Source of the DNA: Candidatus Atribacteria bacterium
GTDB taxonomy: Bacteria; Atribacterota; Atribacteria; Atribacterales; JASGLU01
Length of the DNA: 50,573 nucleotides
Reading direction: 5' to 3'
Assembly: GCA_030156825.1 (NCBI GenBank)
Contig: JASGLU010000004.1
Coordinates: 1-50,573, forward strand
Shown here piece after piece: positions 21,101 through 48,301 of this stretch (positions are counted from its first letter, which is position 1; each line of letters opens with the position of its first letter). The notes beneath the pieces are model-generated. The model searched no databases and was not told the origin of the DNA. It saw only the letters and a program-made list of their open reading frames with translations. Made by a program: the position numbers and the translations under genes.

Positions 21101-21104
21101 AATA

Positions 21105-21194
21105 AGGGGGTAAACCCCTATAACCCCAAAAAAACCAAACAAATCAAATATAAAAAGACAAAAACAACCGAGGAAGAGAAAACTTTCCTCGGTT
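21105..21194. repeat. 3'-UTR repeat/terminator: GGGGGTAAACCCCTATAACCCC, A-rich GACAAAAACA, then hairpin AACCGAGGAA/TTCCTCGGTT
   Basis: Read directly; same layout recurs at 28564-28639. Confidence 0.6.
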
Positions 21195-21219
21195 CCAATT
21201 GTTTCGATTTTTATCATCT

Positions 21220-21265
21220 CCTCTCCCTCGACGGGAGAGGATTAAGATGAGGATGAAAATGAACC
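21220..21265. repeat. Palindromic intergenic repeat CTCTCCCTCGACGGGAGAGG followed by ATTAAGATGAGGATGA
   Basis: Inverted repeat read directly; resembles CTCTCCC..GGGAGAGG-type intergenic palindromes seen in diverse bacteria. Confidence 0.45.
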
Positions 21266-22092: not shown

Positions 22093-22943
22093 ATGCGTAT
22101 CTTAGTGGTAGAAGACGAAAAACGTTTAGCGGAGGTTATCAAAAAAGGCTTGGTAGAAGAGGGTTATTCAGTTGATACCGCCTATGATGGAGTAGAAGGA
22201 CAATATATGGCCGAAAACACTCCCTATGACCTGGTAATTCTTGATATCATGCTGCCTAAAAAAGATGGAATCACTGTTTGCCAAGAACTACGCACCAGAG
22301 AAATTAACACTCCTATATTGATGTTAACTGCAAAAGATAGGATAGACCCCCATGCTGCTTGAGCCGCACCAGATAACAATGAAAACAGAATTCAATATAA
22401 TCTTAGAGAAACAATAGTGGTCTATCCTTTCAGTTTTTCGTTTCTTTAGTCTTTGCCTTTTATTTTTAGTTTTTCGGGGGGTTTAAGGGGGGCGAAGCCC
22501 CCATTATTGCCGTTTACAGGATAAAAGATAGGGTAAAAGGCTTGGATTCAGGAGCTGATGATTATCTGGTTAAACCTTTTGCCTTTAGTGAGTTATTAGC
22601 CAGAGTAAGAGCCCTTCTGCGGCGAGAAGCTATTTCTAAATCTCCAAAGCTTCAGGTGGGTAATTTGGTAATGGATACCTTGACTAGAGAGGTGTGGCAA
22701 GGAGATAAAAAAATCGAATTAACCACCAAAGAATATGCACTGCTCGAATACTTTATGCGTCACCCTAATATGGTAATTACTCGAACTATGCTTATGGAAA
22801 AAGTGTGGGATTATGATTTCGAAGGTATATCCAATGTTATAGACGTGTATGTTCGCCGATTGCGGCTTAAACTGGACGAGGTAGAAGGAGAAAGTATTAT
22901 TGAAACAGTAAGGGGAGCTGGTTATAGATTAAGGGAACCATGA
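22093..22943 (+). pseudogene. OmpR-family response regulator interrupted by a ~183 bp insertion; pieces 22093-22362 and 22542-22943
   Basis: Removing 191 bp (insert plus one duplication) gives ..[26 protein letters not shown].., a normal receiver-DNA-binding protein. Confidence 0.92.
22340..22522 (+). mobile_element. Short non-coding insertion element (MITE/REP-like) in the response regulator gene
   Basis: Flanked by AAAAGATA(GG) at 22332 and 22523; homologous to 47636-47896 (inverted) and partly to 50141-50204. Confidence 0.8.
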
Positions 22944-24367
22944 AATTTTTTAAAAGTGTTAAATTTCGCTTAACCGTTTGGTATCTAATAGTTATGAGTA
23001 TTTTGCTTTTTATTTTTGCTGCCGTATCTTACTTTACTCTTTACCGCAATCTATACGATAATTTAGACGACAACTTAGAAAACCGGTGGATTAAATTACG
23101 AGGCCTGCTACGAGAGTCTAAAGATAAAGTCGATATCGACATGGAAAGAGAGTTAGGAGAAATCATATTAATTTATTCCCCAGAAGGTATTCTACAAAAA
23201 AGCTCTGGACCTTTTACTGACACTTCCGATATTGTACCAGTAGTGCAAGAAGTAGCTCAAGGAAATCCTCTTTTTTTCAATACCACCACTACCTATGATC
23301 GAGAAATCCGATTTTACGCTGCGCCAGTCACGGTAGAAGAGACCTCTCTCGTGGTATTAATTGGTCGTCATTTTGACGAAATAAAAATTATTTTGGGGAG
23401 ATTGCGTACCATTTTTACCCTTTCCGGTTTAGCAATGTTATTTTTAGCTGGTATTGGAGGATTATTTTTAGCTAATCGAGTACTTCGCCCGGTGGACCGG
23501 ATAACTCGTACCGCTCAAAAAATAGGAGAAAGCAACCTGAGCCATCGGATAGAGATAGATAGTGAAGATGAATTAGGAAGGTTATCTCTTACTCTAAATC
23601 GAATGATAGCTCGTCTGGAAGACGCCTTTCGCCGTCAACAGCAATTTGCTGCTGATGCCTCACACGAGTTGCGTACTCCTTTGTCTGTCATTCAAGCAGA
23701 AGCCACTTTGGCTCTCAGCAAAGATAGAAAAATAGAAGATTACCGGGAAACCTTGGAGACAATTTCTCAAGAAGCTGCTTATATGTCATCAATAATTGAT
23801 AAATTGCTTTTTTTAGCCCGCAGTGATACTCGACAGGAACAATACAGTTCTGAAAAGGTTAATCTTCGGGAGTTAATTACCGACTTAGCAATCAATATAG
23901 AAACACTTGCTCAGGAAAAAGGGCTGAAATTGGAAGTAGGAACAATAGAAAATCTGGTGGTGAGAGGTGACAAAGATAGGTTAAAGCAACTTTTGTTTAA
24001 TCTTTTAGAAAATGCTATCAAGTATACTATGGTGGGAAAAATTTCTATCTCGGCTGTCCGAAAAGATAAGATGGCGGTAGTAACTATTGCTGATACTGGA
24101 ATTGGCATCCCCCCACAGGACTTACCTCATATTTTTGAGCGCTTTTGGCGAGTAGACAAAACCCGTTCTCGAGAGAACGGGGGTACGGGTTTGGGTTTGG
24201 CTATTGCCCAGGAAATTGCTGAAGCCCATGGTGGAAAGATTAAGGTAGAAAGTGAATTAAATAAAGGGAGTACTTTTTCAGTGATATTACCTATCTCTCC
24301 AGACATCTCTGAAAGTTCAGGCAAAAAGAAAATTAAACGGAAAAAGAAGCAGTTAAAAAATATTTGA
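22940..24367 (+). CDS. Sensor histidine kinase (HAMP-HisKA-HATPase)
   Basis: DASHELRTPLSVIQAEATLAL, DTGIGIPPQDLPHIFERFWRVDKTRSRENGGTGLGLAI. Confidence 0.93.
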   Translation: MKFFKSVKFRLTVWYLIVMSILLFIFAAVSYFTLYRNLYDNLDDNLENRWIKLRGLLRESKDKVDIDMERELGEIILIYSPEGILQKSSGPFTDTSDIVPVVQEVAQGNPLFFNTTTTYDREIRFYAAPVTVEETSLVVLIGRHFDEIKIILGRLRTIFTLSGLAMLFLAGIGGLFLANRVLRPVDRITRTAQKIGESNLSHRIEIDSEDELGRLSLTLNRMIARLEDAFRRQQQFAADASHELRTPLSVIQAEATLALSKDRKIEDYRETLETISQEAAYMSSIIDKLLFLARSDTRQEQYSSEKVNLRELITDLAINIETLAQEKGLKLEVGTIENLVVRGDKDRLKQLLFNLLENAIKYTMVGKISISAVRKDKMAVVTIADTGIGIPPQDLPHIFERFWRVDKTRSRENGGTGLGLAIAQEIAEAHGGKIKVESELNKGSTFSVILPISPDISESSGKKKIKRKKKQLKNI

Positions 24368-25605: not shown

Positions 25606-25723
25606 ATTACAGTTCAAATTGTACTTCTATTTTCTCATTACCTCAGCAAATTTTCTTTAACCCAAGTTGGAAAATGTGTCTTTTCTCTAATTTTGTTCGT
25701 TGAAATTCAAAAAACAACTAAAA

Positions 25724-28508: not shown

Positions 28509-28563
28509 ATAGAAAAATGTACCACTTTTTTACCTTATATGAAAGTATCTTCCCACACAAAAA

Positions 28564-28639
28564 TTACCGATGGAGGAAAGCTCTCTCTCGGTAGTTTTTG
28601 TTTTTGTCTTTTTTCAGGGGGTTTAAGGGGGTTTACGCC
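28564..28639. repeat. Terminator plus G-rich repeat at the lpxB 3' end (minus orientation: GGGCGTAAACCCCCTTAAACCCCCTG, A-rich GACAAAAACA, ACCGAGAG hairpin)
   Basis: Same arrangement as 21105-21194 after hflC. Confidence 0.55.
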
Positions 28640-29767
28640 CTATCGTTCGCTTATATACTGACCTATAACCTGGGTTACTTTTTCAAAAGTGTTACCCTGG
28701 GATAATTTTTCTCGAATTTCTTTGCTCCATGCCCAAGCCTTATCTCTAATACAGGGATCATTTAGAAGTTTCTCCATGGTTTGGCTCACCTGGTAAGGAG
28801 AAAAGTCCCGCTGAATCAGTTCTGGACAAATTTCCCTTTCCAACACAATATTAGGTAATCCCACCAAGTCAGTCTTAACCAACCAACGAGCAAAAAAATA
28901 AGTCAGCAAAGAAAGATGATAGACAATAATTTGAGGAACACCCATTAAAGCCACTTCCAGAGTTACCGTACCCGAACAAGATACACAAAGAGAGGCTCGG
29001 CTTAAAGCAGAATAAAGTTCCGAATGGGGCAAAATCGATACCGGTAAATCACCAACCTCTCTCTCCAATAAACTTTCTATTTGTGGCGAGGCAGAAATTA
29101 AATTAAAATGCATTTTGCTTTCTCTTTTTTCCCAGGAAGAAATAACTTTTTTCAAAACAGAGATAAAAGCCATTACTTCTCCCTTCCGGCTACCAGGTAA
29201 AAGTACTACTTCTTTCCCCAGGTTATTTTGTTCCTGCAGAGAGGGGAAAAAATCAACCTCTGGAATTAGCGAAACTAACGGATGGCCAACCCAGTTCACT
29301 TTTTCTGGAGAAAAATATCTTTCCTCCCAGGAAAAAACCGTTAGAATACGATCCGCCCATTTGGAAAGCTTAATCGCTCGTTGGGGTTTCCAGGCCCACA
29401 CCTGAGGTGGAATAAAATAAATCACTGGTATCCCCTGATTATAGGAAAATTGTGCCAATTTCAGGTTAAAGCCAGGGTTATCAATCAATACTACTACCCG
29501 TGGTTTTTCTCGTAATATGAGATCGGTAGTTTTTTTCCACACTCTCCTCCACCGAGGAAAAGAAAGCAATGCCTCCCAAATTCCAAAAGTGGCTATGGAA
29601 TCGGTGTAATAAATAACCTTCCCGCTGGAGCGAGCAATATGTTCTCCCCCCAGAGCATAAACGGTTAAGGTTGGGTATTTTTTTCGAAGCCGACTAACAA
29701 TCTCCCCTCCATAGCGATCACCCGAGATTTCCCCGGTCGAGATCAAAATTGAACTTTTATCATTCAT
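28640..29767 (-). CDS. lpxB: Lipid-A-disaccharide synthase
   Basis: ISTGEISGDRYGGEIV, IDNPGFNLKLA, YFIPPQVWAW, LLPGSRKGEV. Confidence 0.93.
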   Translation of the reverse strand: MNDKSSILISTGEISGDRYGGEIVSRLRKKYPTLTVYALGGEHIARSSGKVIYYTDSIATFGIWEALLSFPRWRRVWKKTTDLILREKPRVVVLIDNPGFNLKLAQFSYNQGIPVIYFIPPQVWAWKPQRAIKLSKWADRILTVFSWEERYFSPEKVNWVGHPLVSLIPEVDFFPSLQEQNNLGKEVVLLPGSRKGEVMAFISVLKKVISSWEKRESKMHFNLISASPQIESLLEREVGDLPVSILPHSELYSALSRASLCVSCSGTVTLEVALMGVPQIIVYHLSLLTYFFARWLVKTDLVGLPNIVLEREICPELIQRDFSPYQVSQTMEKLLNDPCIRDKAWAWSKEIREKLSQGNTFEKVTQVIGQYISER

Positions 29768-46195: not shown

Positions 46196-46780
46196 TTAGC
46201 CGGTTACTACTTTATGGTTGCTAATTTCATCCTGTTCAAATAGATCACCCCCGTAAGCATCGTATGCTACTATCAAAGGGAAATCTTTTACCCAAATACG
46301 CACCAAAGCCTGAGCCCCTAACTCCGGATAAGCCAAAACCTCTTTTTGGACCACAAACCGAGTAAGATAGGCAGCCGCTCCGCCACAAGCGATGAAGTAA
46401 ATCCCGAGATAATTTTTCAATAGTTCTTTTACTTTGTTTTCTCGGGAACCCTTACCAATGGTAGCTCTAACCCCCAACTGCAAAAAAAATTCCAAATATC
46501 GATCCATTCGCCGGCTGGTGGTGGGGCCAATCGAGCCGATTACTTCTCCCGGAGGAGTAGGACTGGGACCAGCATAGTAAATAACTGCTCCTTCAGGATT
46601 AAACGGTAAAGCATGGTTAGAATTAAAATCAGCTATTAACCTCTTATGAGTCGCATCCCGAGCTAAATAAACTTCCCCATTTAAAAGAACCAGATTCCCC
46701 GCCCGAAGTATTTTCACCTCGTCCAATCCCAAAGGGGTTTCTATGGTTAACCATTCTTGCGTTCTCACCTTCATCACCAC
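46196..46780 (-). CDS. Class I fumarate hydratase, beta subunit
   Basis: GEVIGSIGPTTSRRMDRY, ATIGKGSR; adjacent alpha subunit. Confidence 0.9.
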   Translation of the reverse strand: MVMKVRTQEWLTIETPLGLDEVKILRAGNLVLLNGEVYLARDATHKRLIADFNSNHALPFNPEGAVIYYAGPSPTPPGEVIGSIGPTTSRRMDRYLEFFLQLGVRATIGKGSRENKVKELLKNYLGIYFIACGGAAAYLTRFVVQKEVLAYPELGAQALVRIWVKDFPLIVAYDAYGGDLFEQDEISNHKVVTG

Positions 46781-47616
46781 TTAAGAGTTTTTTGCCGAAA
46801 AACATGACAGCTACTTACCAAACCAACCGGAAGGCTGGCGATATGGCAAGGATAGCTTTCTATCCGTACTTCCAGGCAGGTATTTTTTCCTCCCACTCCC
46901 TGGGGACCAATCCCTAAGGCATTAATATCTTGCTTCCATTTTTCCTCCAGCTCGCGGTAACGACGATCAGCGTTGACTTGACCCAAAGGACGAGCCAAGG
47001 CATGAGAAGCCAAATAAAGGGCATAAGCCCCATTGCCACCAATTCCCACTCCTACTACCAGAGGAGGACAGGCGCGAGCGGCTTTTTTCTCTAACTCGTT
47101 CAAAACATATTTTTCCACTTCTTCTGGGCCATCTCCTGGGTTAAGCATACCCAAAGCAGTAATATTATCACAGCCTCCACCTTTAACCAACAGAGAAATC
47201 TCCAAACTGTCCCCGGCCATCAAATCAAAAAAATAAACCCCGGGGGTGTTGTCTTCGGTATTCTTCCCCCAAAAAGGGTCAGAAACAATCGATTTTCGAA
47301 AATACCCCTCCCGATACGCTAAACGGATTGCTTCATCCAATCCACTACGGATAGTTCCTCCTTCAACCAGTAGCTGGTCACCCACTCGAACTTCGGCCAT
47401 TACCATTCCCGTATCCTGACAAAGAGGGAGCTTTTTTTCCTGAGCAACCTCATAATTCTCCAAAATCTCAGATACCATTTCTTTGCTTATTTCATTTTCT
47501 TCCTCAGTCAATAAGCGAAGCATATGTTGCCGCAACTCAGGAGGAACGGTTGTATTCAACTCTAAAAGGGCGGTTTTAACCGCCTGGACTATATCATCCC
47601 AGATAACTACCTTCAA
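46774..47616 (-). CDS. Class I fumarate hydratase, alpha subunit
   Basis: PLCQDTGMVMAEV, KGGGCDNITALGMLNPGDG, ACPPLVVGVGIGG. Confidence 0.92.
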   Translation of the reverse strand: MKVVIWDDIVQAVKTALLELNTTVPPELRQHMLRLLTEEENEISKEMVSEILENYEVAQEKKLPLCQDTGMVMAEVRVGDQLLVEGGTIRSGLDEAIRLAYREGYFRKSIVSDPFWGKNTEDNTPGVYFFDLMAGDSLEISLLVKGGGCDNITALGMLNPGDGPEEVEKYVLNELEKKAARACPPLVVGVGIGGNGAYALYLASHALARPLGQVNADRRYRELEEKWKQDINALGIGPQGVGGKNTCLEVRIESYPCHIASLPVGLVSSCHVFRQKTLKW

Positions 47617-47635
47617 GAATCATCCTCTTCTTTAT

Positions 47636-47896
47636 CGGTTATAATAGGGGCTCCGCCCCCCTTATAACCGAACTATAGAGGGTAACCCCCTATAACCCCC
47701 CGGAAAACTAAAAGATTAAAGACAAAGACCAACTTGAGGGAGTATATTCCCTCCTTCAGTCTTTTCTATGTTGTATCTCTTTTCCGTCATACCCGAAATT
47801 AGTAATCAGGTATCCAAAACGGATTTCTTCTCCCTCCGAGAGGGAATTTTGTTTCCATTGTTATCTGGTGCCGCCATGCGGCATGGCCATCTATCC
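47636..47896 (-). repeat. Second, larger copy of the structured repeat family, inverted relative to 22340-22522
   Basis: Revcomp starts GGATAGATGGCCATGCCGCATGGCGGCACCAGATAACAATGGAAACAAAATTC and ends GTCTTTGTCTTTAATCTTTTAGTTTTCCGGGGGGTTATAGGGGG..GGGGGCGGAGCCCC..ATTATAACCG. Confidence 0.75.
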
Positions 47897-48301
47897 TTCT
47901 TCTCTTACAATCTCAAAAATTTTACATAGTAGCAATATACTTCATTCGACTTAGAAAGGCAACCACCCACAGTTTACAGAGTAAACCTCCGCTTAAATCA
48001 TAAAATCTATCATTAGCCTAAATCTTTTCCTCAGGGAAAAATTAAGACTAACTTTAATCGTTTGGTAAAAAATAACAACCAAAGCAATTTCCCAAAAGGA
48101 ACAAGTTCAAAGATTAATGGTTATCTTGCTTATTTTTATAATATAATTGATTCATAATCTCCTAACTTATCAGTCTTTCAATTTGAGTTACCCAAAAATG
48201 ACAAGCTCAAAGGAAAAGACTTGATATAGGCTGATTGTTGGCACCTATAGCGCAACTTGGGTTAGGATAAATTTAGATCAAACTGGTCGAGACTAAAAAT
48301 T

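Follow-up and report, generated by a model that had tools for sequence, protein, structure and literature searches.

Several repeat systems of bacteria offer points of comparison for the locus described here. PATEs are miniature derivatives of IS200/IS605 elements that are moved by TnpA, a Y1 HUH transposase, and they resemble the present family in lacking genes, in making no target duplication and in lying with one border next to a short fixed word. Their sub-terminal hairpins and their internal complement of the cut site have possible counterparts here in the hairpins near the unit ends and in the minimal unit, respectively. However, we found no TnpA partner in the genome or beside the copies, the target here is 7 nt long, the end of the unit is itself the target and gives rise to arrays, and the units have cargo and are hypervariable over their first 25 nt. 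REP/BIME elements and their RAYT proteins (GTAG and CGTC families; PMC3733652, PMC8266576) share with our family the hundreds of mostly intergenic palindromic copies and a probable single-strand mobilization, and CGTC-like palindromes are also present in the cargo here. In contrast with REP/BIME, the head hairpin described below has no GTAG or CGTC tag, its foot reading ..CA-TGCTGC..GCAGCA-CCAG.., the conserved head is 45 nt long, the borders are exact and accompanied by a target word, and no rayt gene flanked by heads was found.

The pneumococcal BOX elements have a modular boxA-boxB-boxC structure and can be likened, by description, to the present family as a mosaic of conserved end modules with a variable, repeatable and structured middle, although we know of no GGATAGA target or tandem array logic for them. 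Integron cassette arrays consist of head-to-tail units separated by folded attC sites; here too, different units are separated by a folded site of conserved structure and entry takes place at old junctions. Unlike integron cassettes, the units that we describe are gene-less, attC boxes were not seen by eye, no integrase was found beside the arrays and solo insertions in new places are common.

Two copies in the window define a repeat family

The window, i.e. the whole 50573-nt stretch of DNA that we analysed, contains two copies of the element, and the features associated with them are collected in Table 1. The first-pass annotation had assigned these copies to a single repeat family, and this assignment was borne out by a 54-nt alignment of the heads, which scored 61 compared with a best value of 30 among 300 shuffles, and by the presence in both of the box GCACCAGATAACAATG. 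The resemblance proposed for the 3′ parts (T-tract, GGGGGG hairpin and GCCCC..ATTAT..CCG) is also real and recurs at 26–68 other places, and the description of conserved ends enclosing a variable, hairpin-rich middle, which is mosaic in character, was likewise confirmed.

Table 1 Features of the two copies and their surroundings in the window
Feature	Position	Strand	Remarks
Copy 1	22340..22518	+	Full-length type-A unit, 179 bp, GGATAGACC...GCCGTTTACA; inside OmpR-type response-regulator gene
Copy 1 head and closing complement	22340..22428	+	GGATAGACC ... GGTCTATCC
Copy 1 hairpin and conserved ACCAGATAACAATGAAAAC	within 22340..22428	+	CATGCTGC-TTGA-GCCGCACC
Target word, right border of copy 1	22519..22523	+	GGATA, native to response-regulator gene
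Response-regulator gene split by copy 1	22093..22943	+	Halves join in frame without exactly 22340-22518
Predicted joined flanks on excision of copy 1			AAAAGATA-GGATAAAAGATAGG
Copy 2	47637..47896	-	Long type-B unit, 260 bp
Copy 2 ends	head at 47896, 3′ end at about 47637	-	
Copy 2 head	47844..47896	-	GGATAGATGGCCATGCCGCATGGCGGCACCAGATAACAATGGAAACAAAATTC; hairpin TGCCGC-ATG-GCGGCA
Copy 2 3′ module	47637..47705	-	G-rich double hairpin GGGGGGTTATAGGGGGTTACCC.. + GGTTATAAGGGGGGCGGAGCCCCTATTATAACC
Presumed target word 3′ of copy 2	47630..47636	-	GATAAAG compared with canonical GGATARA; deduced from family borders
Fumarase alpha-subunit gene	46774-47616	-	Start codon 47616

The middle of copy 2 is, as had been noted, longer than that of copy 1 and rich in hairpins, with an RNA-fold z-score of −5.9, and Rfam returned no matches in the window, nor over the copy 2 element at E values of up to 1. 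Because the start codon of the fumarase gene lies only 20 bp downstream of copy 2 and both share the same orientation, the element is probably part of the upstream region of this gene, where any regulatory effect is only putative. The usual last 8 nt are missing from its 3′ end, where ..CCGTTTACAGGATAAAG is replaced by ..CCGATAAAG, and as the terminal GTTTACAG of full-length copies is thus absent, copy 2 is probably older and damaged.

Copy 1 splits a response-regulator gene, and omitting 22340-22518 from the sequence, without any duplication, restores a full-length protein that aligns without gaps with the solved homologue DrrD (1kgs) through LTAKDRIKDRVKGLDSGADDYL. When an 8-bp duplication is modelled at this site, three residues are deleted from a segment that is of conserved length; AAAAGATA is therefore native to the gene and no duplication accompanies copy 1, and a flanking duplication of 8–10 bp was dropped as a candidate after this homologue alignment. 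The first-pass annotation had also raised a possible 8-bp flanking match, AGAGAAGA/AAAGAAGA, which as a target duplication is refuted by the restored response-regulator frame and by the natural empty site described below. The gene for the histidine-kinase partner (22940-24367) is intact, although the response regulator itself is broken.

The family is abundant in Candidatus Atribacteria

The genome from which the window derives (G000; 1.98 Mb in 98 contigs) holds 78–93 copies of the family. BLAST with copy 2 returned 79 pieces, the pattern CACCAGATAACAATG (core 15-mer, up to two mismatches) gave 83 matches compared with 2 for the reversed pattern, and a stricter definition of the head retained 78 heads on the stretches fetched from this genome. 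These copies are spread over many contigs and are often found at contig ends, so that the assembly is broken at them. A complete relative of 3.1 Mb (G008) contains 221 heads at up to three mismatches and none for the reversed pattern. Among 25 genomes of the class that were searched, 12 carry the element, namely G000 (family f1), seven f3 genomes (genera g6 and g9) and four f2 genomes (genus g10). Named records with good heads are nearly all Candidatus Atribacteria MAGs, with the addition of one contig filed as Deltaproteobacteria (L101), and searches of IMG/VR, PLSDB and a phage collection gave zero copies. Four scan matches in other phyla (L107, L110, L112 and L115) were rejected as chance 20-mer matches without a recognizable head. 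As far as we have checked, the family is previously undescribed.

Anatomy of the unit

Full-length units have defined termini and run from GGATAGACC to TTTWCA, the 3′ end being either TTTACA or TTTTCA. Each unit starts with GGATAGAC(C)NNCATG, followed by the hairpin and then by ACCAGATRASRATGAAAA. The hairpin is found as TGCTGC/GCAGCA, TGCCCC/GGGGCA, TGCCAC/GTGGCA, TGTCAC/GTGACA and other variants, and the proportion of paired stem cells in a set of 28 diverse heads is 88%, compared with 79% after shuffling. Compensatory change was clearly detected in these heads, with 23 cells altered on both sides of the stem compared with 7.7 in shuffled data, a value of 23 being reached in none of 500 shuffles, and this signal was lost when the partner was slid by one to three columns.

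Type-A units have a middle with AATTCAATATAATCTTAGAGAAACAATAGTGGTCTATCC and type-B units one with hairpins as in copy 2, and the middles in genus g6 are combinations of CGTCATTGCGAGG..GGCAATCTC, CCCTCACCCTAACCCTCTCCC and GACATGCCATGGCATGTCG repeats, some of which resemble (by eye only) the CGTC palindromes of PMC3733652. A minimal unit of 129–134 bp, arranged as GGATAGACC-head-GGTCTATCC-T-rich-ACGCCGTAGGCTGCTATCCTGTNGTAGTTTACA, is present in both f1 and f3, and the cargo of longer units is composed of other dispersed repeats. The minimal unit shows terminal pairings CTATCCTGT/ACAGGATAG, and its internal GGATAG words pair with both presumed TATCC cut sites; both of these internal pairings are missing from the 299-bp unit, which is clearly mobile. 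Every type of unit also has a hairpin towards the end opposite the head, its sequence and distance differing between types.

Recent amplification is evident in two genomes. In G020 at least 35 copies match the minimal unit at 89–95%, and a burst of thirteen units of 129–130 bp has exact ends; in G008 nine distinct units of 299–300 bp have ends exactly alike and display 98.4% identity. The first-pass annotation had suggested a mobile structured DNA or RNA unit; its mobility is upheld by the interrupted gene, the empty sites and these bursts of near-identical units, and its structure by the covariation of the head hairpin, while recognition as single-stranded DNA fits the evidence at least as well as action as an RNA.

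Head-less cargo modules of terminator-like appearance follow genes in the window at 21101-21260 and 28540-28660, comprising a T-tract with a GGGGGTTTAAGGGGG-type hairpin and a CCGAGGAAG..CTTTCCTCGG hairpin. In addition, a second dispersed family (AAAAGACTGATARATMAGG .. AATTGTAGTATAAA .. AACTTGGGTTA) lies at 48165-48290 and 25648-25669 of the window and at many other loci of the same genome, in which AGACTGATAGATAA directly precedes about a dozen heads. Class C introns insert behind terminators, and a probable group II intron (GTGCCCGGCATGGGCA...), identified by eye, was found behind a GGGGG hairpin inside one G008 unit (L181, from about 1620). A sub-threshold match to a T-box leader (69.8 bits, with a gathering value of 93) is located at 1063-1271 of L188, upstream of a unit and an argC-like gene.

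Units insert exactly beside a target word

The right flank of the units reads GGATAGA or a close variant (GRATARR), with 0.9–1.7 bits per position over the seven positions, of which only positions 6 and 7 represent independent conservation, as the pattern used to search for right ends contained GGATA (positions 1–5). On the left flank only an A at −1 is conserved. A natural empty site in G022 (C597) reads AAAAAAAGAATAGGCTCC and shows no duplication, and its filled counterpart in G008 consists of AAAAAAAG, a unit running from GGATAGACC to TTTTCA (GGATAGACC..TCTTTTCA), and GAATAAGCTCC. At both sites for which the empty state is known or could be deduced, the unit's own GGATAGA lies on the left and the target's own word on the right. 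These data clearly show that insertion is exact, directly 5′ of GGATAGA, and takes place without duplication of the flank. A generic indel search for further empty sites was swamped by cargo repeats.

Arrays and the variable first 25 nt

Many units are arranged head to tail, with junctions at which TTTWCA is directly followed by GGATAGACC. The recent units of G020 lie largely at the borders of older units, and orthologous sites in several g6 species hold different units. The target word also opens every unit, so that the borders of old units serve as entry points for new ones and head-to-tail arrays build up. At L205, at L220 and in G000 (C33:9940/10232), adjacent units share rare letters of the head but differ in their bodies.

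Sequence variation within the bursts is concentrated at the 5′ end. In the alignment of the nine near-identical 299-bp units, the first 25 of 301 columns (positions 1–3, 9–11 and the loop) hold 20 of the 26 non-consensus letters, and for the thirteen G020 units the first 26 of 130 columns hold 16 of 27. Such clustering cannot be the outcome of neutral drift. Where array neighbours were scored as differing in their bodies, the 5′ part is nevertheless identical in 5/31 pairs, compared with about 1.5% expected, the bodies in one of these five pairs (C82) starting alike. These patterns would be accounted for by a putative transfer from a resident head, by exchange or by copying, when a unit inserts. 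We tentatively raise the further possibility of a mobile array system in which the body is transposable and the first 25 nt (target word, linker and loop) are renewed at each insertion from the resident head.

Proposed mechanism and alternatives

In the single-strand transposition of IS200/IS605 elements, internal guides pair with the cut sites (PMC5934647, PMC6006769). We consider the chances about even that the units described here move as single strands by means of an HUH-type transposase with the same logic, acting on the strand opposite the head. This proposal is based on the exact insertion without duplication, the short one-sided target, the sub-terminal head hairpin and the internal pairings of the minimal unit, and the lack of these pairings in the mobile 299-bp unit speaks against it. 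A tyrosine HUH transposase would cut single-stranded DNA on the strand complementary to the head, and, read on that strand, insertion would take place 3′ of TCTATCC with sub-terminal hairpins at both ends. Each cut site (TATCC) of the minimal unit would pair with an internal GGATAG, much like the guides of IS200/IS605. The enzyme would act in trans and might be encoded in a stretch of the genome that is missing from the assembly, or have been lost. On entering an existing array, the new unit could take over the first 25 nt of a resident head, by exchange or by copying; the concentration of changes in this segment is not predicted by simple IS200/IS605 transposition. In G008 the copies show only a weak preference for one orientation with respect to replication (48 to 31, p = 0.07).

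As no intact Y1 transposase (PF01797) was found in G000, which has only a 65-amino-acid open remnant, we do not file the family under IS200/IS605. The same domain was absent from the head-bearing assemblies G014, G015, G018, G019 and G024, which are incomplete, and TnpB above the cut-off was found in no head-bearing genome but only in genomes without heads. A Y2 search of the genomes of the order gave no match, with the control also silent. An all-against-all comparison of open frames near heads revealed no gene family that recurs or is linked to the ends, and transporter genes near heads were dismissed as coincidence. A Y1 protein of roughly 290 amino acids is present in G008 and shared with G005, and the CGTC-like palindromes of the cargo are possible substrates for it. 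The Y1 loci that were fetched have no flanking heads; in G005/G008 one head lies about 1.3 kb past the gene.

An integron- or phage-integrase-like system, in which circular units would be integrated at a 7-bp common core GGATAGA by a tyrosine recombinase and arrays would grow by way of resident heads whose hairpin resembles a folded attachment site, is possible but on the doubtful side. It would account for the 7-nt direct repeat GGATAGA at both borders, which has the size of an integrase overlap, for the head-to-tail arrays and the conserved hairpin of variable sequence, for the different bodies at the same sites in several species and for the rare 5′ letters shared by neighbouring heads despite different bodies (5/31 compared with about 1.5%). 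However, the core differs between unit and target at the two sites with a known or deduced empty state, the unit's version consistently lying to the left and the target's to the right, the attC consensus (RYYYAAC/GTTRRRY) was not seen by eye and no recombinase gene recurs beside heads. An ordinary MITE moved by a DDE transposase would be bounded by terminal inverted repeats and flanked by a duplication of its target, here of 8 bp as hinted at in the first-pass annotation, and indeed GGATAGACC...GGTCTATCC of type-A and minimal units resembles such repeats and AAAAGATA lies on both sides of copy 1. As GGTCTATCC is internal, the actual 3′ border being TTTWCA, and AAAAGATA belongs to the response-regulator gene, with an empty site that also shows no duplication, this explanation is already refuted for the cases examined and is scarcely tenable for the family.

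Exact insertion into a coding gene and bursts of identical units at unrelated places argue against a stationary regulatory RNA head (a 5′-UTR switch or terminator) whose copies would be spread passively when arrays recombine or undergo gene conversion, as does the lack of a match to any Rfam family over the window element (E up to 1). We regard such an RNA as improbable, even though structure is kept by compensatory change, copy 2 immediately precedes a gene that is oriented alike and bodies and heads recombine. Mobilization could also be due to a recombinase of the RNA-guided IS110 type, or to a reverse transcriptase acting in trans such as that of a group II intron, and this would fit the multicopy IS110 of G008 (nine matches) and G015, the probable intron inside one G008 unit (L181) and the conserved structured head. 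It is nevertheless decidedly improbable, as IS110 is absent from G000, G014, G018, G019, G021 and G024 and the target is conserved on one side only.

Significance

The family is abundant, with 221 copies in one closed chromosome and, on a rough estimate, approx. 1% of the genome of the window, and it belongs to a phylum that is mostly uncultured. The element breaks a regulatory gene, sits directly before other genes, breaks assemblies at arrays and carries other repeat families. With many filled and empty natural sites, single-strand transposition and cassette integration differ in testable predictions. The hypervariability of the first 25 nt lies outside any textbook route of transposition, and if these 25 nt are indeed renewed from the resident head at each insertion, heads would act as docking sites that can be used repeatedly, with exchangeable gene-less bodies loaded behind them, in a cassette system without attC.
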